Positions 11,949-63,892 of a DNA stretch of 64,000 bases are shown in pieces. The translations under genes and the position numbers were made by a program. The stretch covers positions 62,001-126,000 of the forward strand of contig MEOA01000054.1 of NCBI GenBank assembly GCA_001768515.1, given 5' to 3'. Origin of the DNA: Bacteroidetes bacterium GWE2_42_24 (GTDB lineage Bacteria > Bacteroidota > Bacteroidia > Bacteroidales > TTA-H9). How positions within the stretch are numbered: the stretch's first letter is position 1; each line of letters begins with the position of its first letter. The notes under the pieces are model-generated. The model was not told the origin of the DNA, searched no databases, and saw nothing but the letters and a program-made list of their open reading frames with translations.

Positions 11949-13688
11949 TTATTGCAGAATACACTTTTGGGTGATTATTCCAGAGATAGTGGAGAGTCTG
12001 AAAAAATAGACGCCAGATGGCAATGATGCAGCGTTGAAGCTGATTGTGTGACGACCAGAGGCCTGTTCTCCTTTCACCAGTGACATCATATGCCGACCGT
12101 AGATGTCAAATACAGAGAGGTCAATCGAGCCTGCGTGTTGAAGATGGTAGTTTATGATCGTTGACTGTGAGAGGGGATTAGGTGAAATGGGTTCAAGATA
12201 AAATTCTTTTCCGGCATTGGGTGGTGCCACTATTCCGGCCGAGGCTTTCAGCATTTTGAGGGCATATCGGAGTTCAACGTCAAGGCTGTCAATGTAAAGC
12301 TGATTGATGACGGTATCGTTAACGGGTACCCGGATATCCGGGCTTACACCTCCGGTCATTGTTGAATCGCTGTCAAGCTGAATGATGTAATTTTCGTTCA
12401 TTGACACACCATAGGGATACCTCACGTAGAAGTCAGAGGGGGGCGGGAAGAGGTAATGAGCACGTTCGACCAAAGCAAAGGAACCATTGGTGCCATGAAA
12501 GCCAATGGTTTTGCAGTTGGGTAGTTTACGCAACATCATCGGGATACCTTCTCCCGAACTGATGCTGCGAGGGCCTACAAGTACCATTACCGGCCGGTTG
12601 AACAGAACCCCCTGGGGTTCAGTAAACAAAGTGCCGGGAGGATAAGCAGCATTGGTGTCAAATTCAAGGGTCTGTGGATTGAAATGGGGGATATGCAGAG
12701 GCCATCTTTCGAGGGAGTCGGTATCTGGATTGTACCAACTCTGTTTTTCATACACGGCGTTCTGGTCATAGAAGAAACCAGCCATGGCAGCTGCAAGGGC
12801 GTCATAGCCGCCCATGTTGATTCTGAAGTCGAGCACAAGTCCGGGAGCATCACTGGCAATAAACCCATTGAGCGCGTCCCTGAAGGTGGTGTAGATGGTT
12901 ACTGCGGAAGCCTCATCTCCATAAAGACTGTTGACCTTGATGTATCCATAACCACCGTCCAGAATGGCCGAAGTCACCTCAGGGCCGGTTTCCGCCGGGT
13001 ATAGTGTTGTCTGGTCGAAGGTGGCATATCCGTCATCTACAGCCGTGAGCACTGCCGTTACTGGTGTTGTGGATCCCCTGTTGGTGAATTTGACCTTCAT
13101 GGAAGCCCCTACTGGCGCCCTTCCGATCAGCCGGTTTTGATTCATCTTCCGGAACTCATGGGTGGCTGGTACCAGATCAGCCCATCGGGTAGGAACGGTA
13201 TCCAATACACTTTGCACGGGATGATCGTTAATTTCTAAAAGTTCGGCCCCGAATAACATGCCTGCCTGAGCAGCAGGAGAACCGGGGTTGATTAGTCTTA
13301 CCAGAATGCGGCCATCATCGGTTCCAATAACTGTAAACCCATAACTACCTCCTATCTCACGGTATCGGGCTGCTGCCCTGATGGCTACCCAGCCATGCCG
13401 GACATTGGTATGTCCATCATGGATGCCATCGATGTAGGAAGCCATTGCAATATAGAAGGCGGTAGTATCATCAGTAGTGCCTGCAGCGATTATCTTTGGC
13501 CTGATGGCTCCGTTCAGAGAATCCCAGTCGATTGCTTTCCAATCGCCCATGGGGTACCAGACTGAAAAAACCTGGTGCATCGAATCGTAAGCCTGGACGA
13601 ATCCATTGGTTTGCGCAGAAGAAATACCAGCAAGCATCATAAAGAGGCTGGTGATGGTGATGAGCTTATTAATCTGTTTGTTTATCAT
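11949..13688 (-). CDS. Secreted S41-family peptidase with T9SS type A sorting domain
   Basis: 579 residues. A hydrophobic N-terminal signal peptide ends near residue 25. A PDZ-like region (about 110-170, with INPGSPAAQAGM) precedes the S41 catalytic core (about 240-450): DGGYGYIKVNS, LVLDFRINMGGYD and the putative nucleophile region VGPRSISSGEG. Residues about 500-579 form a Por-secretion-type domain (ISPNPLSQSTIINYHLQ ... LPSGVYFFRLS), so the mature protein is exported by T9SS and anchored or released at the surface. Substrate unknown. It appears to be transcribed alone, with about 300 bp upstream. Confidence 0.9.
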   Translation of the reverse strand: MINKQINKLITITSLFMMLAGISSAQTNGFVQAYDSMHQVFSVWYPMGDWKAIDWDSLNGAIRPKIIAAGTTDDTTAFYIAMASYIDGIHDGHTNVRHGWVAIRAAARYREIGGSYGFTVIGTDDGRILVRLINPGSPAAQAGMLFGAELLEINDHPVQSVLDTVPTRWADLVPATHEFRKMNQNRLIGRAPVGASMKVKFTNRGSTTPVTAVLTAVDDGYATFDQTTLYPAETGPEVTSAILDGGYGYIKVNSLYGDEASAVTIYTTFRDALNGFIASDAPGLVLDFRINMGGYDALAAAMAGFFYDQNAVYEKQSWYNPDTDSLERWPLHIPHFNPQTLEFDTNAAYPPGTLFTEPQGVLFNRPVMVLVGPRSISSGEGIPMMLRKLPNCKTIGFHGTNGSFALVERAHYLFPPPSDFYVRYPYGVSMNENYIIQLDSDSTMTGGVSPDIRVPVNDTVINQLYIDSLDVELRYALKMLKASAGIVAPPNAGKEFYLEPISPNPLSQSTIINYHLQHAGSIDLSVFDIYGRHMMSLVKGEQASGRHTISFNAASLPSGVYFFRLSTISGIITQKCILQ

Positions 13689-46648: not shown

Positions 46649-46684
46649 CAGTCCTATACATCGTATTATACCACATTGAATTTT

Positions 46685-47914
46685 ATGTTTAAAAAGATTA
46701 CTTTCTTTCTGTTTGTTCTATTTTCCCTTTTTGGAACCAGAGTAACCTCCCAGAGTTTTGACCTAAGTAGTGTGAAGATTGCGTTTCATGGTTTTGTCCG
46801 GGGTGACGCGGCTTTTGACAGCCGACTAAACGTGGAAGCCCGTGAAGGTTTTGTTATATTGTATCCTTTAAAGCCTGATTTGGATGCCAATGGTGCCGAT
46901 ATCAATGCAGTTCCTAATTTTAACCAATGGGGGATGACATCGCGCGTCAATCTAACGGCCACGGGGCCCGATATTCTGGGAGCTAAGGTAAAAGGATTTG
47001 TTGAAGGTGATTTTACCGGCCCATCTAATCCCGAGAACAATGCTTTCAGGTTGCGGCATGGTTATATAGAAATGAAATGGGTTAAGGCATCGATACTAGT
47101 GGGGCAGTATTGGTCTCCATTAGATGTACCCGAGATGTTGCCGAGGGTTCTTGCGCTGAACACAGGAGCTCCTTTTCGGTCGTTTACCCGCAGCCCAATG
47201 ATCAAGGTAGCCTATACTCCGGGTAAGTTTGATATAATCGCGGTTGCTTATGCACAAAGAGATTATGTTTCTCCTGGTCCAAGTGGTGGGTCTGTTTCTT
47301 ATCTTCGGAATGCTCTGGTTCCCAATCTGCATCTAATGATTCAGTATCATGGCCAATCTCTTTTTGCCGGTGCCGGTGTTGATTACAAACAATTACGCCC
47401 GAGGCTGGTAACCGACAGCCTGTTTAAAGCTGATGAACTGGTAAGGTCTGTCTCACTCCATGTATTTGGTAAGTATACCGATAGGTCCTTTCAGATTAAG
47501 ACGCAGGTTATCCTCGGCCAGAATCTGAGCGATCATCTGATGACAGGTGGTTATGCTGTTGAAAAGGCCGATTCGTTGGATAACCGGACTTATGTGAATT
47601 TGAATAATCTATCGTTATGGGCTGATCTGACATATGATTACAGATCGGTAAGACTTGGATTGTATGGTGGATATGTTAAAAACCTGGGGACAGGCAGAGA
47701 TGCCAAAGGTCCCTTTTATGGGCGTGGTGATGACATTGATTATATCTATCGAGTAGCTCCCCGTATCGATGTGAATATTTTGCCCTTACAGTTTACTTTT
47801 GAAGTCGAGTATACGGTTGCTGCTTATGGGATTAGTGATAATCGTTTTAATGTTTCTCAGACTGATGAAATCAGCAATATTCGGTTGCAGGCTGCCGTTA
47901 TCTATATGTTCTAA
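46685..47914 (+). CDS. Outer-membrane beta-barrel protein, porin-like
   Basis: About 409 residues from the ATG at 46685 (an upstream TTG at 46676 would add three). A signal peptide ends near residue 22 (TRVTSQ). The mature part alternates hydrophobic and polar residues, is rich in aromatic residues and glycine, and ends in Phe, as expected of an outer-membrane barrel. Segments such as AKVKGFVEGDFTG and FRLRHGYIEMKW resemble DcaP-like porins. The substrate is unknown. Confidence 0.78.
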   Translation: MFKKITFFLFVLFSLFGTRVTSQSFDLSSVKIAFHGFVRGDAAFDSRLNVEAREGFVILYPLKPDLDANGADINAVPNFNQWGMTSRVNLTATGPDILGAKVKGFVEGDFTGPSNPENNAFRLRHGYIEMKWVKASILVGQYWSPLDVPEMLPRVLALNTGAPFRSFTRSPMIKVAYTPGKFDIIAVAYAQRDYVSPGPSGGSVSYLRNALVPNLHLMIQYHGQSLFAGAGVDYKQLRPRLVTDSLFKADELVRSVSLHVFGKYTDRSFQIKTQVILGQNLSDHLMTGGYAVEKADSLDNRTYVNLNNLSLWADLTYDYRSVRLGLYGGYVKNLGTGRDAKGPFYGRGDDIDYIYRVAPRIDVNILPLQFTFEVEYTVAAYGISDNRFNVSQTDEISNIRLQAAVIYMF

Positions 47915-48013: not shown

Positions 48014-48610
48014 ATGAAAACAGTTATTAAAATCGTTTTAGCCCTTATTATTGTAGGTCTTAGCTACCTGGTTTATGAAAGTATTATGACCCCCGTTCGC
48101 TTCGACCAGGCTAAAAACCTGAGGTATGATGCTGTTGTCCAGAAGTTGAAAGATATTCGAGACATCGAGCGGTTTTTTCGTGCGGGAAATAAGCGTTACA
48201 CTGCTAATTGGGATTCACTGGTAGCCTTCGCCAGGATTGGACAGATACCTGTAATCAAGATGGTAGCCGACCCCACTGATACCACCTTTTCGCGTTCCAT
48301 TACTGATACCATCGGTTTTATTAGTGTGTATGATTCTCTTTTTGGCAAACGTCAGAATTTTAGAATTGAAGATATTTCAATAGTTCCGGGAAGCAACGGG
48401 CAGAAATTTGAAATCCATGCCGGCAAAATTGACAAAGGTGGCATGTTTGCTGATGTATATGAAGTTCTTGCACATAACAATTCAATTCTCGCGGGTCTTG
48501 ATGAACAATTGGTTCGAAATCTTAACAAGGTTCGCGAAGATATTGACAAATATCCCGGATTGAAGATCGGTTCGATGGTGGAAGTGACTACCGACGGCAA
48601 TTGGGAGTAA
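48014..48610 (+). CDS. Conserved membrane-anchored hypothetical protein
   Basis: 198 residues. A hydrophobic segment at about 4-22 (IKIVLALIIVGLSYLVYESI) is an uncleaved anchor or signal. The rest is soluble, with RYDAVVQKLKDIRDIERFFRAGNKRYTANWDSLVAFA as a helical segment. Homologues occur upstream of DUF3822 and rsmD in Bacteroidota, but the function is unknown. Confidence 0.75.
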   Translation: MKTVIKIVLALIIVGLSYLVYESIMTPVRFDQAKNLRYDAVVQKLKDIRDIERFFRAGNKRYTANWDSLVAFARIGQIPVIKMVADPTDTTFSRSITDTIGFISVYDSLFGKRQNFRIEDISIVPGSNGQKFEIHAGKIDKGGMFADVYEVLAHNNSILAGLDEQLVRNLNKVREDIDKYPGLKIGSMVEVTTDGNWE

Positions 48611-57021: not shown

Positions 57022-57762
57022 GTGGTAAATATACGTATTATTGAAGTTGCTGAATCGACCAATACTTCGCTCAGTCAATTATTACAGAATGAGCAATTGC
57101 CTTCTGGTTTTATGCTTTTGGCCAAAAACCAGACTCATGGCCGGGGGCAAAAGGGAAATATCTGGGAAAGTTTGCAGGGAGAAAACATAACCGCCACCCT
57201 GCTCCTGAAACCACAAAACCTTGAGTCTGCCGACCAATTTTATCTGACAATGGTTGTTGCTATAGGCATTGTTGATTTGTTAAAAGGGCTGGCCCCAGAG
57301 GCCCAATGGTCAGTGAAGTGGCCTAATGATATTTATTGCGCTGATAAGAAGATTGCCGGAATTCTCATTGAGAATGTGATTATGGGGAATGACTTTGGTT
57401 ATTGTCTGGCGGGCATCGGGTTGAATGTAAATCAACATAAATTTTTATCAGATGCTCCTAATCCAATATCATTGTCAATGATAACTGGAGATATCTATGA
57501 TATAAATACTATCGCTGGTCAGATGAGTATATCAATTCTTGATCGTTTTTCTCACCTTGAATCTGGCCATACTGGTAAGCTACGAGCCGATTATCTGAAT
57601 CATCTTTACCTGCGTGGTATCCCAGCATTGTTTCTGTATGAGGGTAAAACTATTAAGGCTGAAATACAGGATGTTGACATATATGGGCGATTAAGGCTGC
57701 TTCGGACAGATACCAGAGAACCCATTATTGCTGCTTTTAAAGAGATAAAATATCTGCAATAA
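57022..57762 (+). CDS. birA: Biotin--[acetyl-CoA-carboxylase] ligase
   Basis: 246 residues, GTG start. Class I ligase without an N-terminal DNA-binding domain. Motifs are VAESTNTSLSQL, the biotinyl-AMP loop THGRGQKGNIWES, and VKWPNDIYCADKKIAGILIE. Attaches biotin to carboxyl carrier proteins. Divergent from rsfS. Confidence 0.96.
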   Translation: MVNIRIIEVAESTNTSLSQLLQNEQLPSGFMLLAKNQTHGRGQKGNIWESLQGENITATLLLKPQNLESADQFYLTMVVAIGIVDLLKGLAPEAQWSVKWPNDIYCADKKIAGILIENVIMGNDFGYCLAGIGLNVNQHKFLSDAPNPISLSMITGDIYDINTIAGQMSISILDRFSHLESGHTGKLRADYLNHLYLRGIPALFLYEGKTIKAEIQDVDIYGRLRLLRTDTREPIIAAFKEIKYLQ

Positions 57763-57779: not shown

Positions 57780-59561
57780 TCATTTCTCAGTTTCCATTAC
57801 TATTTCAGCTATATCTTTTGTTGGGCCTTTGCTGTGACGGTCAATCGTTTTTTTACACAACGGACAGGCCGTAATTGTTGTGACGTCAGCATCCTGAGTT
57901 ATTGATTTACTTGCTGCTTCGCAGAGTTGCTTTGTGTCGGAATTGTATTCACCCAAACTGCCCAGACTGCCTCCGCAGCATAACTCTGACATTGGAATTT
58001 CCTGTGCATTATTCTTCAATCGCCCGACCAGTGTTTTCAACGCAGTGGCTGCCTCGCTTTTTCTGTCTAATTCGCAGGGGATATGCAGGGCAAGCTTTTG
58101 GTCCAGCGAGGGAAGTTTAATTTTATCAGCTTTGGCCAAATGAAGGATAAAGTCAGCGTGGTGTACTATTTCAATATTCAATTGGTAATTGTCTCTGAAC
58201 ATCTTGTAACAGATCGGGCAATTTGTTAAGAGTATTCTGGCACCAGTATCCAGTATGGCCTTTCTGTTTGATTCAATGAGTTGCATGGCCTCCTGTTCAC
58301 GTCCTGTCATCAACATAGGACGTCCGCAACAGATACTTCCATCTGCATCAAGCCATTGGTATTTTATACCAGAGTTCTGGAGAATCTGCTTTACCGACTT
58401 GATAGTATTTGGTGTCAGGTGGGTCATGCATCCTGCAAACCACACCACCTCAACCGATGTCCTTGCAGCTGTTGCCGGATACGCGGGGCAATTTAGCAAG
58501 CGGTCTTGTAGTGTCAGTTGCTTTCGTGCCCAAAGCCGTAAATTGACCAATCCGATTCCAACCGGACAGGCATCCTGACAGCGACCACAAAGAAGGCAAT
58601 TTTCGGTAATATCCTTAACTGCTCTCCCTGCACGCAGTTCCCTGATAAAATAGGCAGGAGCAGTAGATGGACTGTTTCCATTACAGGCTACCTGGCAATA
58701 GTCGAGGCAAACACCACAGCGGCTACATGCTTGCATGCCACATTCATAGTAACTCTGCGTTTGGGTTATCTTTGGTCCACCCCAATGTTTCAACAGAATG
58801 TATGCGATTTCTGCCGGGATGTGCATGTAACGGGTATAAGGGAGCAATATGAAGAACACTCCCAATGAAAAGGAGTAAGCCCACCAGAAAGGGTAGTAGA
58901 GGTGTTCTGCCGGCAAGGCAGCGGATAGAACCCTGCCAAGCGAATTGGTGAGAAAGCCTCCACCGCCGAAACAACCTGCCGTAAAGCTTTCGGCTAACAG
59001 GCGAAGGGGGAAAATTAGCCATAACGAAGTCAGTGCTATCCGGTCGACAGCATTGTGTTTGGTTGTGTGATGTAACCCAAACCAACGACTTCCGGATCTT
59101 TTAAAGAGTGCCAATACCAATCCTGAAAGTACAAAAAGTAGAAGAAAGTCCATGATAAACCTGAAGAACCCCGGGATAGTGGTTAGTTCGAATGGCAGGA
59201 CATGGCTGTCGTGAACGAAAAATTTCAGGAAAATGGGATAATAGGGTGGGTTGACGTGTAATTGGCTATATAACCTTGATTCTAGATTTCCCATCACGAT
59301 AAGCAGGAACCAGCCGAGTGCAAAACTCATATGCATGTAACCCAAGAGCCTGTTTTGTTGCCAAAGGCGTTTGTGCAGAAGCCCTTCACGGATTATCTCC
59401 CATATTGCATTGACTGTTGAACGGCATAGAATCCGATGCCGGAGTTCCTTCTTAATAGCAGGTGGCAGCATTACATACCAATGCCGGAATCGCTCTACTA
59501 CAACAATAAGCAGGTAAACCAACCCTATTGAAAAAGGAAGGACAAAAAGATCGAATGTCAT
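57780..59561 (-). CDS. HdrD-like Fe-S protein fused to an N-terminal membrane domain
   Basis: 593 residues. The N-terminal ~250 residues hold about five membrane segments resembling a cytochrome-b/NarI-like HdrE or DsrM domain, with histidines near HKRLWQQNRLLGYMHMS and LHHTTKHN. Next come two [4Fe-4S] sites (CSRCGVCLDYC and CLLCGRCQDACP), then two CCG domains with both cysteine sets intact: C-x32-CC...CPIC and C...CCG...CPLC. The architecture suggests a membrane anchor exchanging electrons with the quinone pool. Start overlaps the previous gene's stop (ATGA, 59558-59561). Exact partner is inferred. Confidence 0.88.
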   Translation of the reverse strand: MTFDLFVLPFSIGLVYLLIVVVERFRHWYVMLPPAIKKELRHRILCRSTVNAIWEIIREGLLHKRLWQQNRLLGYMHMSFALGWFLLIVMGNLESRLYSQLHVNPPYYPIFLKFFVHDSHVLPFELTTIPGFFRFIMDFLLLFVLSGLVLALFKRSGSRWFGLHHTTKHNAVDRIALTSLWLIFPLRLLAESFTAGCFGGGGFLTNSLGRVLSAALPAEHLYYPFWWAYSFSLGVFFILLPYTRYMHIPAEIAYILLKHWGGPKITQTQSYYECGMQACSRCGVCLDYCQVACNGNSPSTAPAYFIRELRAGRAVKDITENCLLCGRCQDACPVGIGLVNLRLWARKQLTLQDRLLNCPAYPATAARTSVEVVWFAGCMTHLTPNTIKSVKQILQNSGIKYQWLDADGSICCGRPMLMTGREQEAMQLIESNRKAILDTGARILLTNCPICYKMFRDNYQLNIEIVHHADFILHLAKADKIKLPSLDQKLALHIPCELDRKSEAATALKTLVGRLKNNAQEIPMSELCCGGSLGSLGEYNSDTKQLCEAASKSITQDADVTTITACPLCKKTIDRHSKGPTKDIAEIVMETEK

Positions 59562-59893
59562 GGCAGCAGACTGATTTGAAGTTGTTTTAGTTCATGCATC
59601 AGCTTGCGTGTATCCACATCACGGGGGCATACAAGACGACATTTTCCGCATAGTTGACATTTTGCCACTTCTAAGGCCAAAGTTGAATAGCAGCCTTGTC
59701 GTGCCAGCATTTGCGTCCGGCGGGGATTAAATGAGGAAAACTGCCCCGCGGTACAAACAGCCGCACAACTACCACAACCTATACATCTTTTCCAACTGTC
59801 CACAATCTGAAGTACAGAGGCGATTTGACTCAGATCGATCTGGTCAAGGTCAGTCTGGCGGTCTTTTTGCTTCTGAAATCCAAATTCTTTCAT
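59558..59893 (-). CDS. HdrC-like [4Fe-4S] ferredoxin protein
   Basis: 111 residues. Two [4Fe-4S] motifs: C37, C40, C43, C47 in CIGCGSCAAVC and C79, C82, C85, C89 in CQLCGKCRLVCP. Resembles the HdrC electron-transfer subunit. It lies 2 bp after the HdrA-like gene and overlaps the HdrD-like gene by 4 bp, so these are very likely one complex. Confidence 0.9.
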   Translation of the reverse strand: MKEFGFQKQKDRQTDLDQIDLSQIASVLQIVDSWKRCIGCGSCAAVCTAGQFSSFNPRRTQMLARQGCYSTLALEVAKCQLCGKCRLVCPRDVDTRKLMHELKQLQISLLP

Positions 59894-59895
59894 GC

Positions 59896-60924
59896 CTAAT
59901 TGATGATGTTAAAGAGCTGTTCATAGAGTGCCAGCGATGCAGACCTGCCAGCCTGAATGGCTTCAGTAAGTGTGGCAGGACCTGTGCATGCTCCGGCTAA
60001 CATAACATGTGGATGTCTTGTACGGAAGGTATTTTGTGATGGCCCTAATGGCTTCAGGAATCCATCGGGCCCTGTGGTAAATCCGAAAGTATCGGCCAGA
60101 TTGGCAGTGTGTTTTGATGGCTGCATACCGCAAAGAAGTATAAGCATATCGACAGTAAGTTTCAGTGGGCGAGCTGTTAGGGTGTCTTCTGCCTTAATGA
60201 TCACTTTTCCCTGTTGGTTTTCTGCTGCCTCTGAGATTCGCCCTCTGATAAATCTGATATTGTATTTTTCTTGCGCATCATGATATAATTCTTCAAAGCC
60301 CTGGCCGAACATCCTCAGGTCCATATAAAAGTTATAGATAATGGCATCAGGAAGTTTCTCCCGCATTTCAATGGCCTGTTTTACGCCTGTTACACAGCAC
60401 ACCTTGGAACAATAACTGACGCCGACTTTTTGATCACGAGAGCCAACGCAATGTAAAAATGCAATTGATTGAGGGATCTTTCCGCTTCGGTTTTCGATGC
60501 GCCCGTTTTCAAACATCTGTTCTACCTCAGCCTGCGTGTATACATTATCGTAAATCCCATAACCATATTCCTCTTTCCTGTGGGCATCGAACAAGTCAAA
60601 TCCTGTTGCCAGTAGCAGTCCGTCTCCGGTTATCCATGTCCCTTCATCTAGTTTTAAATCTACCTGATTTGTCCGGACGTTCCCTCCGATGACTTCACGA
60701 CCCATTATTCGCGATACTTCATCGGGTACTTCTGATACTAATTGCTCAAGCAGTATCTGTGCTGAAGACCTATCGGGAAATAGTTGATGCCATTTTGAGA
60801 GGTGCCCGCCCATGTCAGGATCTTTGTCGATCAGGGTAACCGATGCGCCTAGACGTGCCAGAACACCGGCTGCTGCAAGGCCGGCAGGTCCGGCACCAAC
60901 TATGATAATCCGTTTACTGCTCAT
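59896..60924 (-). CDS. HdrA-like FAD oxidoreductase subunit, short form
   Basis: 342 residues. Rossmann FAD-binding motif IIIVGAGPAGLAAAGVLARLG at the N-terminus. The HdrA signature is FLHCVGSRDQ followed by YCSKVCCVTGVKQA, and the flavin domain continues to the C-terminus (VMLAGACTGPATLTEAIQAG). It lacks the extra N-terminal Fe-S and C-terminal ferredoxin extensions of methanogen HdrA, resembling QmoA-type proteins. Start overlaps the HdrB-like gene by 11 bp. Confidence 0.9.
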   Translation of the reverse strand: MSSKRIIIVGAGPAGLAAAGVLARLGASVTLIDKDPDMGGHLSKWHQLFPDRSSAQILLEQLVSEVPDEVSRIMGREVIGGNVRTNQVDLKLDEGTWITGDGLLLATGFDLFDAHRKEEYGYGIYDNVYTQAEVEQMFENGRIENRSGKIPQSIAFLHCVGSRDQKVGVSYCSKVCCVTGVKQAIEMREKLPDAIIYNFYMDLRMFGQGFEELYHDAQEKYNIRFIRGRISEAAENQQGKVIIKAEDTLTARPLKLTVDMLILLCGMQPSKHTANLADTFGFTTGPDGFLKPLGPSQNTFRTRHPHVMLAGACTGPATLTEAIQAGRSASLALYEQLFNIIN

Positions 60925-61996
60925 AACCGTATACTTTTAATGTGTTAGGTTTTTTAGGCTCCCCTAACGATTTACCGGCGAGGTTGTTGTATTTTTTGCT
61001 CAAATCGTATGGAATTCCCATTTTATCGAGAAGTGGTTCAACCGCCACCTGATGGATATGTAGTCCAAGATCCCATGGGTCGTAACCTAAAATCAGCCCG
61101 GCCAACTCTTCAAACGTCAGCACTGGAATTCCATGTCCATTATCTCCATAGGTTTTTCCTTCCATTTCACTGATGACATATTGCCAGCGATCAAGGAAGA
61201 ATGGGCATCCGGGGCAATTCGTTACGATGAAATCGGGATGGTAGGGTTCCATGCTCTCAAACTTTCGTTGTGAACAGGCCATACTGTATCCCCGGTTTGC
61301 CTGAACCAGGTATTGTCTGAACCCAAAACCACAACAATGGCGACGTTCCGGATAATCAATGACTTCTCCTCCCCAGCTTTCTATCAATCCTGCCAAGACA
61401 TAAGGGTACTCTGCACCACCGACACCCTTGTGGGGGAACATCTTGGCATAATGACAGCCGATGTGCTCCACTCCCCTGAGTGGGTTGCCTGTTTGCTTGT
61501 TGATTAATTTGAAACGTCTCCTTTGCCAGATATCCTCTCTGAATTTGTAAATTACATCGCTGCTGTGAGCCAGATTTTCGGGTAGTTCAAATTCGCGCTT
61601 CGTGGCCTTATATAGAAATTCTCGTGTCTGAGCCAGTGTGTCAGGGAAGTGTTCCCATGTTTCAAGTATTTCGGTGTAGATACCAAAGGAGGTGATACAT
61701 GATGGGACGAAATTCTTAAACCCATGCTCTGTCATCAGCGCAAATTGACGGGCAACAACAGTCATAATGGTAGGCAACTGAACTACATCGGCATGATAAG
61801 CAATGCCAGTGCACGTGGTATGACGAGGGTCGTCATATACATCTTTGCCAAGTTCTTCTTTGAGAATTTTCAAAAAAGTGAACTCTGAAGCCGGGAAGAA
61901 ATTCTGCCTTACACAGCTACGGGCATAAAAATAGTGATCATCGGCTATCTCTTTCTGGTATTCTTTCCAGATATGTCTTTTCCCTTCGATAATCAT
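60914..61996 (-). CDS. HdrB-like protein with one degenerate CCG domain
   Basis: 360 residues. The C-terminal CCG motif is intact: C181-x39-C221C222-x38-C261-x2-C264. The N-terminal copy keeps C28, C62 and C100 but has Thr for the first Cys of the CC pair and lacks the final Cys of CxxC, so it probably does not bind a standard noncubane cluster. Resembles the heterodisulfide-reductase catalytic subunit. Start and stop overlap its neighbours (61993-61996 and 60914-60924), so translation is coupled. Confidence 0.87.
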   Translation of the reverse strand: MIIEGKRHIWKEYQKEIADDHYFYARSCVRQNFFPASEFTFLKILKEELGKDVYDDPRHTTCTGIAYHADVVQLPTIMTVVARQFALMTEHGFKNFVPSCITSFGIYTEILETWEHFPDTLAQTREFLYKATKREFELPENLAHSSDVIYKFREDIWQRRRFKLINKQTGNPLRGVEHIGCHYAKMFPHKGVGGAEYPYVLAGLIESWGGEVIDYPERRHCCGFGFRQYLVQANRGYSMACSQRKFESMEPYHPDFIVTNCPGCPFFLDRWQYVISEMEGKTYGDNGHGIPVLTFEELAGLILGYDPWDLGLHIHQVAVEPLLDKMGIPYDLSKKYNNLAGKSLGEPKKPNTLKVYGYEQ

Positions 61997-62697
61997 AGTC
62001 GGTTGTGATTTTCGTCATTAGCCGTATAAATATACCTGAAATATTCGCAATCAATTGTTTCGTCAAACTGCATGCCCAACTCGCTGGCTTTCTGTTTCGA
62101 ATGTTTTTCAATGAGTTCATAAAAGTCTGAAGCCCCGGTTACCTCAAAGATGGCTTTTAATTCGTCAAGCGATTCTTTTGGAATTGCCCGTAGAGCGCCT
62201 GGGCCGTGACCTTTGTAGTTCGCTCCCATCCTGTTGAAACTGTCAGGAGCATTTCTTATCAGCCAATCCCATATTGGCCCTTGTTCAGGGTGCATCTCCA
62301 TGGTAATGTTTTCTGCAAACAGGCAATAACCTTTCTCAAGAATCCATGTTCCAACGGTCCTTTTAATAGCCAACTGCTGCCGCCCCTTTTCCGATTCGGT
62401 GAAATAACCGGTCTCCTGCGAAAGCTTTCGGAGTGCCTGAATAAGGAGCCCTGGAGCATTATTACGCGGGCAACGAGTCTTGCATGACATGCATTCTCCA
62501 CAATACCAGATGGTGTTGCTTTTTAGAAGTGCTACTAATTGAGTCTCATCCTGCTGCTGTAAAATTTCTGCAATCATGCGGGGATCGTAATCATAGACAG
62601 TGGCGGCCGGACATATTGCCGTACAGGTGCCGCAATTGAGACATGCGCCAAGACCTTCCTGATAACGGATGTCCTGTTTTAATCTTTCAAAAAGCAT
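61993..62697 (-). CDS. HdrC-like Fe-S protein, first gene of the Hdr-like operon
   Basis: 234 residues. Two [4Fe-4S] motifs: C19, C22, C25, C29 (NCGTCTAICP region) and C66, C69, C72, C76 (CGECMSCKTRCP). A longer C-terminal part (about 100-234) is less conserved. Corresponds to HdrC. Coupled by ATGA to the HdrB-like gene. A candidate -7 element lies at 62761-62768. Confidence 0.9.
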   Translation of the reverse strand: MLFERLKQDIRYQEGLGACLNCGTCTAICPAATVYDYDPRMIAEILQQQDETQLVALLKSNTIWYCGECMSCKTRCPRNNAPGLLIQALRKLSQETGYFTESEKGRQQLAIKRTVGTWILEKGYCLFAENITMEMHPEQGPIWDWLIRNAPDSFNRMGANYKGHGPGALRAIPKESLDELKAIFEVTGASDFYELIEKHSKQKASELGMQFDETIDCEYFRYIYTANDENHNRL

Positions 62698-62840: not shown

Positions 62841-63242
62841 CTATGATTCAAAATGAAATTTGAGCCTGTCTAATATCATGTTGACAAAGTTCTGAAGAGG
62901 TGCTTTGGCAAGCATTTGCAACATCGGGTTTAAATCTCCCCTGAATTCGCAGGTAATGAAAGATGAGAGGCTATTGGCTTCGATGTTGAAAACCAGTTCA
63001 AATGAAAATGGGCTGGCATTCAGTGAACTGTAAATGACCTGTGTGTTGGGTAACCGCTGGCTTATTTTTAGGCTGATATCAGCCATCCCTTTGATTGTGA
63101 AACTACAGGCGTCGCCTGATACTTTCCAGTTGGTAACTTGTTCGGGCAGGAGTTCATTAAAATTTCGGTAATCGGCCAGAAGGTTAAAGATGGCTTCGGC
63201 TGGAGCGCCAATTGATTCGCGGTTGCTTTTGATGATTGTCAT
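62841..63242 (-). CDS. SRPBCC-fold protein (RatA/START-like)
   Basis: About 133 residues from the ATG at 63242, which overlaps the pyrE stop (ATGA). The frame extends seven codons upstream but that start would lie inside pyrE. A polyketide-cyclase/START-like fold: NRESIGAPAEAIFNLLADYRNFNELLPEQ at the N-terminus and the long C-terminal helix (QNFVNMILDRLKFHF). Members bind lipids or other hydrophobic ligands; the ligand is unknown. Coupled to pyrE. Confidence 0.82.
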   Translation of the reverse strand: MTIIKSNRESIGAPAEAIFNLLADYRNFNELLPEQVTNWKVSGDACSFTIKGMADISLKISQRLPNTQVIYSSLNASPFSFELVFNIEANSLSSFITCEFRGDLNPMLQMLAKAPLQNFVNMILDRLKFHFES

Positions 63243-63892
63243 ACCTCGAATTGTTTTCCCCATTCAGCCGGATTAACGCGCCAACTGTTTAATGATTCAA
63301 TGTCATTCTGTGTTATATAATTCTCCTCGGCAGCAAGGGTTACAAGCGATTCATAGTCGGAAAGGGTTATCAGCGGAACTTTTGCTTCTTTGAAAGCAAC
63401 ATCGGCTACCTGAAAACCATAGGTGAAAATGGCCATCATTCCTTTTACGACTACTCCCGCTTCCCTGAGTGCTTCAACTGCCTTCAGGCTGCTTCCACCT
63501 GTGGAGATTAAATCTTCTATCACAACAGCAGATTGGCCTGGTTCAACGACCCCTTCGATCAGATTTCCCAATCCATGTTTTTTTTCAGCCGCCCTGACAT
63601 AAGCAAAAGGTAGCCCTAGATCCTGAGCAACTAGTGTTCCCTGAGGTACTCCACCTGTAGCAACACCAACGATGATATCAGCAGAACCAAACATCTCTGT
63701 AAAAGATTTTACAAATTCCTGTCGAATTCCTGTTCTGATTTTTGGGTAGGAAAGGGTAACGCGATTATCGCAGTATATCGGCGATTTCCACCCTGATGCC
63801 CAGGTGAATGGTTTCTTTGGACTCAGCTTGATGGCCTTTACCTGCAAAAGGTATTGGGCTATCAGTCTGGCTGATTCGTGATTTATCTTCAT
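63239..63892 (-). CDS. pyrE: Orotate phosphoribosyltransferase
   Basis: 217 residues. Makes orotidine 5'-phosphate in pyrimidine synthesis. Features are ASGWKSPIYCDNRVTLSYP, IIVGVATGGVPQGTLVAQ, the loop VRAAEKKHGLGN, and the PRPP motif VVIEDLISTGGSSLKA. First gene of the pyrE-SRPBCC unit. A candidate -7 element lies at 63958-63965. Confidence 0.97.
   Translation of the reverse strand: MKINHESARLIAQYLLQVKAIKLSPKKPFTWASGWKSPIYCDNRVTLSYPKIRTGIRQEFVKSFTEMFGSADIIVGVATGGVPQGTLVAQDLGLPFAYVRAAEKKHGLGNLIEGVVEPGQSAVVIEDLISTGGSSLKAVEALREAGVVVKGMMAIFTYGFQVADVAFKEAKVPLITLSDYESLVTLAAEENYITQNDIESLNSWRVNPAEWGKQFEV

Follow-up and report, generated by a model that had tools for sequence, protein, structure and literature searches.

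A Bacteroidales operon of five Hdr-type genes with its own membrane subunit: a possible sister of sHdr

What sort of enzyme is encoded when the parts of a heterodisulfide reductase (Hdr) share one operon with a subunit that carries its own membrane domain? The question is raised by five open reading frames (ORFs), called here C1, B1, A, C2 and B3, which lie in that order on the minus strand at 57780-62697 of a stretch of DNA from Bacteroidetes bacterium GWE2_42_24 (order Bacteroidales); this stretch, 64,000 nt of contig MEOA01000054.1 (assembly GCA_001768515.1), is the window to which all coordinates refer unless a locus is named. Our answer, to which we give a probability of about one half, is that the five products would form one membrane-anchored complex, a sister of sHdr, acting as a thiol/disulfide (or protein-bound sulfur):menaquinone oxidoreductase with a flavin adenine dinucleotide (FAD) protein as its hub. 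We place the operon within the Hdr/sHdr kind and not in a separate category, and it is common in its order.

The operon and its conservation

C1 (61993..62697, 234 aa) has two [4Fe-4S] motifs and resembles the HdrC/sHdrC1 electron-transfer subunits; B1 (60914..61996, 360 aa) is HdrB-like, with a degenerate site 1 of the sHdrB1 type and an intact five-cysteine site 2; A (59896..60924, 342 aa) is a short FAD protein of the HdrA type; C2 (59558..59893, 111 aa) is a small ferredoxin, again with two [4Fe-4S] motifs; and B3 (57780..59561, 593 aa) is a membrane subunit resembling EtfD, EMO and HdrDE. From C1 to B3, successive ORFs are related by a 4-base overlap, an 11-base overlap, a 2-base gap and another 4-base overlap. 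The first-pass annotation of this DNA had described just such a tight operon, composed of HdrC, HdrB, a short HdrA, a second HdrC-like ferredoxin and an HdrD-like membrane protein, and the position of the ORFs and their domains agree with it. Indeed, Pfam finds Fer4 motifs in C1 and C2, CCG in B1, a Pyr_redox_2/HdrA core in A and, in B3, Fer4 plus two CCG stretches preceded by an N-terminal half that is hydrophobic, while the best NCBIfam models are HdrC for C1, HdrB for B1, HdrA2 for A, HdrC for C2 and TfrB for B3, with scores far under the model cut-offs. The eight cluster cysteines and C125 of C1 are conserved in 17/17 aligned sequences and the eight cysteines of C2 in 19/19; A carries the motif GAGPAG at 10-15, together with C159, C172, C176 and C177.

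Is this arrangement peculiar to one genome? It is not. A search of 60 genomes, the window's own included, found a short HdrA at E < 1e-70 in 20, which we call carriers; in 17 of their 20 loci all five genes stand in order, two loci run into a contig end, and the last (genome G009) has B1-A only. A second set of 17 loci was drawn from an order-wide search, in which B1 was matched at 1e-20 or better in 91 of 295 sampled genomes, and here seven loci are complete in order, one (L201) has all five genes arranged as C1-C2-B3 and then B1-A, two have B1-A only and seven C1-B1 only. The 37 window-type B1 loci of both sets thus comprise 24 with the order C1-B1-A-C2-B3, one rearranged, two cut, three with B1-A and seven with C1-B1, tallies that are not frequencies because having two B1 copies in the genome was one ground for inclusion in the second set. 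This is the synteny comparison for which the first-pass annotation had called, and it reveals an arrangement far above chance, a real and conserved operon. Across the phylum, B1 was matched in three of 296 sampled genomes, a sample in which the window's order makes up only two of the 22 other genomes listed: the three are the window's own genome and two with 31-32% identity, in clusters resembling sHdr type II.

Descent of B1 and A, and the comparison with sHdr

Two familiar complexes share an HdrA core and CCG/ferredoxin subunits with the operon, and it is neither of them, as had been said of it from the outset. In canonical HdrABC, HdrA is full-length and has ferredoxin domains inserted in it, and HdrB has two complete noncubane sites, whereas A has 342 aa and site 1 of B1 keeps three of its five cysteines. 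Qmo consists of two HdrA-like subunits and the membrane subunit QmoC, whereas the window has one HdrA-like ORF, and its membrane domain is fused to the HdrD-like part. It is sHdr that stands closest. The first-pass annotation did name sHdr for comparison, and what it missed is that the C1-B1-A-C2-B2 order and the short HdrA make this the nearest relative. A further relative is found on a plasmid of the cyanobacterium Picosynechococcus sp. PCC 7003 (NZ_CP016476; L052 13044-18784), where the order is C1-B1-A-C2-B2 and A and B1 are 45% and 41% identical to ours. This cluster differs in that its B2 is soluble and SdhE/HdrB-like (199 bits against an SdhE-type model, 190 against HdrB), and in that a sulfide-quinone reductase (SQR) gene follows, 5 bases on, in place of a membrane subunit; the SQR product, which would be of type I, matches sulfide-quinone reductase structures at 2e-98.

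B1 is the best conserved of the five subunits, with 56-82% identity to the window's copy across 17 other non-cyanobacterial rows. Its site 1 keeps C28, C62 and C100 and has Thr61 and Ser103 in the window, and this pattern of C28, S/T61, C62, C100 and S/T103 is found in 19/19 window-type, 1/1 cyanobacterial and 22/22 sHdrB1 sequences of the alignment, while all five cysteines are present at site 1 of sHdrB2 (20/20), the cyanobacterial B2 and Ilyobacter HdrB. Site 2 consists of C181, C221, C222, C261 and C264, five cysteines in window-type and cyanobacterial B1; position 261, by contrast, is aspartate in sHdrB1 (22/22 of type I and 2/2 of type II). By analogy with HdrB, we take the residues of these CCG sites to be ligands of noncubane clusters.

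The phylogenies, which cover A and B1, tell a consistent story. In a first B1 tree (64 sequences, 338 columns), window-type and cyanobacterial B1 together (ultrafast bootstrap, UFBoot, 95) are sister to sHdrB1 (UFBoot 100), and the B1 groups split from HdrB, sHdrB2 and the cyanobacterial B2 at UFBoot 100. In a second (56 sequences, 340 columns), extended by B1 from orphan loci and by two sequences of type II, UFBoot is 100 for the order's B1, 89 when the cyanobacterium is included, 100 for sHdrB1 of types I and II and 100 for all B1; copies from five-gene operons do not form a clade of their own. The window's B1 is therefore sister to the sHdrB1 clade of types I and II and not inside it, which is what the subunit phylogenies proposed by the first-pass annotation have yielded so far as B1 is concerned. 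Given this grouping and the site-1 pattern common to B1 and sHdrB1, we see in the operon a sister branch of sHdr equipped with a membrane arm, and the idea of a soluble Hdr CBA module joined to a DE-like subunit has to be given up. The A subunit points the same way: it matches sHdrA of Hyphomicrobium denitrificans (6tjr_A) over its full length (2.5e-59, residues 4-332 to 2-335) and the long HdrA chains of the PDB (643-671 aa) in pieces only. In the A tree (58 sequences, 337 columns), window-type and cyanobacterial A form a group at UFBoot 100, sHdrA another at 100, and the long HdrA and Qmo-like proteins are set apart at 66; whether the cyanobacterial A falls within the window type or outside it has a support of only 30.

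Might the operon then simply be an sHdr? The known role of that system is sulfur oxidation, in conjunction with lipoate-binding proteins. It is recognized by a single cluster that holds either H and C2B2 (type I) or HB3 and etfAB (type II) (PMC11582611), and LbpA, a lipoate-binding protein, is associated with it (PMC6067878). To obtain reference loci, named genomes were scanned with a 6tjr_A-led alignment, and of at least 585 matches the best 80 were taken and 78 used; genes of GC-rich loci were located by tblastn. C1, B1, A, H, C2 and B2 are all present in 57 of the 78, and these we assign to type I because the six genes are there, following PMC11582611. The window operon has the syntenic core of sHdr, C1B1A with a short HdrA. 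On the other hand, tblastn at 1e-3 found neither H with C2B2 nor HB3 with etfAB in any of the 25 loci that hold all five genes: H, LbpA-like, DsrE and ETF (electron transfer flavoprotein) genes score 0/25, with queries that included two H and two ETF proteins, the latter from L188, one of the two type II-like loci of the phylum. The same queries do find their targets elsewhere, since in the 78 sHdr loci they match H in 75, LbpA in 59, DsrE in 63 and ETF in none, and ETF is matched in L188 and in its companion L189.

The comparison can be put more concretely. With type I (shdrC1B1AHC2B2 plus lbpA, as in H. denitrificans) the operon has in common the order C1, B1, A, then C2 and a B2-like gene, as well as the short HdrA, the site-1 signature and the sister position in the B1 tree; it differs in that no H, LbpA or DsrE was found at its loci, in the cysteine at 261 of B1, in a C2 that is a 111-aa ferredoxin and in the replacement of B2 by a membrane-bound HdrD-like subunit. 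With type II (shdrC1B1AHB3 plus etfAB; L188, L189) it shares the C1B1A core and a membrane protein of the EMO type nearby, but there B3 is a soluble protein of its own, ETF is present, EMO is separate with no cysteine at its CCG site 1, and B1 has aspartate at 261. L188 (genome G064) and L189 (G146) come from the same phylum, though not from the order of the window, and contain C1-B1-A, a fused C2B2, the EMO-type membrane protein, GCV_H, DsrE and two ETF genes, the last annotated in L188 and found by tblastn in L189; H was found in L188 only.

A genuine third type of sHdr, which would oxidize carrier-bound sulfane sulfur to sulfite and send the electrons through its membrane arm to menaquinone, is nevertheless an idea with something to be said for it, since gene order, short HdrA, site-1 signature and B1 tree all fit, and the cyanobacterial homologue adjoins an SQR gene. 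In one genome (G031; L037/L209), moreover, DsrE, TusA, FlpD, two long HdrA-like genes and a membrane gene that we ourselves read as QmoC-like are followed on the same contig by the five-gene block, with one opposite-strand ORF between and about 8 kb separating the block from TusA and DsrE. The window's own genome (97% complete) has four GCV_H matches away from the operon, three of them over the cut-off, which leaves room for an LbpA-like carrier. Yet TusA, DsrE and SQR-like genes were not found in that genome, 10 of the 20 carriers are missing both TusA and DsrE, and three carriers (G012, G026 and G054, 94-99% complete) have no GCV_H match at all; G026 (99% complete) has the full five-gene block and no match to GCV_H, TusA or DsrE. 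Together with the empty five-gene loci and the aspartate of every sHdrB1 examined, this leads us to think a third type quite unlikely. LbpA, TusA and DsrE are not universal partners of the operon, and on the strength of sequence (loci without H, LbpA, DsrE or ETF, Cys261 kept, and the case of G026) it does not appear to be sHdr as defined.

The same conclusion about partners emerges when the 20 carriers are compared with the 40 other genomes. TusA exceeds the cut-off in 8/20 against 11/40, DsrE is present in 8/20 against 13/40, and GCV_H is absent from 3/20 against 5/40. MenD is found in 4/20 against 16/40, MqnA/D in 11/20 against 15/40 and MenA in 7/20 against 19/40; neither these nor TusA, DsrE, GCV_H or the quinone-linked cytochrome SdhC b558 is associated with carriage (Fisher p 0.15 to 1.0, values that serve as a guide only because the genomes are related). 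The first-pass annotation had suggested a look for co-occurring donor enzymes, and none of the markers tested goes with carriage of the operon. SQR was also considered as a general partner and rejected, with SQR-like genes in 5/20 carriers and 18/40 others.

The membrane subunit and the quinone

What, then, might the membrane arm do? Family-averaged hydropathy gives B3 about five hydrophobic segments, at about 5-23, 72-90, 135-153, 172-197 and 224-249, and in 17 aligned sequences H63, H77, H247, the eight cubane cysteines and the ten CCG cysteines are invariant, so that all 18 of 18 cysteines of the Fe-S motifs are kept, including two complete HdrD-like five-cysteine CCG sites. The CCG part matches EtfD at 1.1e-27 in a profile search of the PDB, and in our multiple alignment H77 and H247 fall on His72 and His239 of the EMO-type proteins in L188 and L189. 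EtfD of M. smegmatis contains five helices and binds haem b through His78 and His241, along with two [4Fe-4S] clusters, a linear [3Fe-4S] cluster and a noncubane cluster (PMC13083937). On these grounds B3 looks like a quinone-linked membrane module of the EtfD/EMO type, which bears out the earlier suggestion of an HdrD-like last subunit with its own membrane domain and a link to quinone.

The likeness to EtfD/EMO (ETF:menaquinone oxidoreductase) takes in the predicted number of membrane segments (about five), a His pair that aligns with the haem positions, two cubane motifs and two CCG domains; B3 differs in that each CCG site has its five cysteines and that the genes beside it are C1B1A-C2 and not those of ETF. 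One could imagine that the whole operon is an acceptor of that kind, in which electrons of a soluble flavoprotein (ETF, or an NADH/ferredoxin enzyme) run through C1-B1-A to B3 with no substrate chemistry at B1. The architecture and the His pair would suit such an enzyme. We nonetheless consider it distinctly improbable: no ETF gene is found in the five-gene loci with the L188 queries or among the scanned neighbours on the contig; A has a single GxGxx[GA] motif; and the site residues of B1 are invariant in 19/19, which would be unexpected in a mere wire.

HdrDE of Methanosarcina offers another model, as it too ties an HdrD-like domain with two complete CCG sites to a membrane domain. It differs from the operon in that B3 is one fused polypeptide and that FAD and B1 arms are added. 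In a mainly HdrDE-like reductase, electrons from menaquinol would pass to a disulfide, of low molecular weight or in a protein, at B3 (and at B1) as part of housekeeping thiol redox. It is certainly true that both sites of B3 are complete, like those of HdrB, while CCG site 1 of the type II EMO-type proteins is devoid of cysteine, and that among NCBIfam models its CCG part scores best against TfrB. However, an HdrDE-like enzyme would need neither a FAD protein nor a B1 arm, and no specific thiol or thiol biosynthesis is linked to it; we therefore regard this idea as rather unlikely.

We favour instead a membrane-anchored sister of sHdr, which might work as follows. B1 would be the thiol- or sulfur-reactive site, where a complete noncubane site, Cys261 included, would face the three-cysteine site; C1 would relay electrons from B1 to A, the FAD/[4Fe-4S] protein, or back; C2 would connect A to B3; and B3, through a pair of cubanes, two noncubane sites of the HdrD type and a single haem b, would exchange electrons with menaquinone. 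The net effect would be that two different Hdr-type sites are joined by one flavin, in a reaction that may run either way. What speaks for it is the recurrent gene order, the kinship of A and B1 with their sHdr counterparts, the invariant His pair and Fe-S cysteines of B3 with its match to EtfD, and the SQR gene next to the cyanobacterial cluster. A bolder version, which we put forward only tentatively, is that of a third major Hdr-type branch, in which the FAD hub couples an sHdrB1-type and a membrane HdrD-type site and bifurcates or confurcates electrons, with the quinone pool on one side and, on the other, a substrate (thiol or sulfur) that requires no lipoate carrier or TusA/DsrE relay.

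A number of observations weigh against the menaquinone-linked complex that we favour. The PDB profile search left the membrane half of B3 unaligned, so that the EMO likeness there comes from our own alignment, and a structure prediction of B3 alone was unusable (mean predicted local distance difference test score, pLDDT, 40.4). One genus, g6, has B1-A without C2-B3 nearby (L048, L203, L205), and C1-B1 stands alone in the seven loci already mentioned, from which it follows that the five subunits need not always act together. A marker for the menaquinone head group (MenD or MqnA/D) is present in 15/20 carriers and SdhC in 18/20, figures that suit a quinone partner, but the other genomes have them in 30/40 and 35/40, no enrichment in either case. 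Five carriers (G007, G009, G016, G041 and G048) are without MenD and MqnA/D over the cut-off; G007 and G016 do have MenA over it, while G009 and G041 are missing SdhC too. G009 has none of the four quinone markers, and its intact locus is without C1, C2 and B3, the only first-set carrier of this kind; G041 is the clearest counter-example, with all five genes present and MenD, MqnA/D, SdhC and over-cut-off MenA absent. Finally, the loci and genomes examined point to no thiol substrate or partner gene. In the window's own genome MqnA/D is matched, and so is SdhC, the latter interrupted by one in-frame stop.

Surroundings, relatives and significance

In six of the seven loci with an orphan C1-B1 pair (L191, L193, L194, L196, L197 and L198), the stretch examined also has genes for DUF134, Nitro_FeMo-Co, MinD/ferredoxin or Mrp proteins. 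BtuR and radical SAM genes likewise occur near some of these pairs, and the whole set is reminiscent of the ORP operon of Desulfovibrio. The seventh (L190, genome G033) adjoins TusA, rhodanese, Sulf_transp (YeeE-type), FlpD and HdrA-like genes, and a membrane QmoC-like gene is also near. Such contexts, with that of G031, make a role of the C1-B1 unit in sulfur or thiol chemistry more likely without proving it. When 16 proteins from the orphan loci and L037 were searched for, none lay near more than two of the 25 five-gene loci. B1-A of L203 is followed by genes of glycogen debranching, glycosyltransferase and GH57 type, three ORF families that recur at L205. On an Acidithiobacillus ferrooxidans plasmid (NZ_CP040512; L053 8931-13089), an HdrB-like CCG protein that stands alone has GcvH-like, hemerythrin, DUF2249 and globin genes near and hcp genes farther off.

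No neighbouring gene accompanies the five-gene loci throughout. When 399 ORFs from all 25 were clustered, the widest family outside the five genes was one of short-chain dehydrogenases that are 22-32% alike and occur in only six loci, a candidate that we rejected; a pyridoxal phosphate (PLP)-enzyme family and a family of overlapping ORFs occur in three loci each and 18 families in two. In the window, birA (biotin ligase) lies on the plus strand at 57022..57762, and an ORF without family match (62841-63263, 140 aa; Pfam and NCBIfam) and pyrE occupy 62841..63892 on the minus strand, all outside the complex; rsfS, ftsH and a LUD-domain gene are also among the flanking genes. The 24 neighbouring proteins scanned on the contig contain no hydrogenase, Flx, Apr or Dsr family, just as the first-pass annotation had it, and no ETF or GCV_H family. 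They do include Por_Secre_tail and CHU_C, type IX secretion signal domains that we take to fit Bacteroidota. Other window ORFs without a match are those at 48014-48610 (198 aa) and 46676-47914 (412 aa), for Pfam at 1e-5, and at 11949-13688 (579 aa), for NCBIfam at 1e-10.

We found no description of this gene set in the accessible portions of the open-access literature on sHdr, EtfD and HdrABC, outside which most subscription papers lie; it does not figure in the accessible text of PMC6067878, PMC11582611, PMC12345210, PMC10332631, PMC12423496, PMC13083937, PMC8002359, PMC5464585, PMC10266427 or PMC8470020. B1 in 91 of the 295 genomes sampled from the order, and half of the 20 carriers devoid of both TusA and DsrE, would imply that the C1B1A core has a second use. 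The quinone-type module suggests what the electron acceptor of the complex may be and, as the five genes form a fixed operon, the proposal is directly testable by expression.

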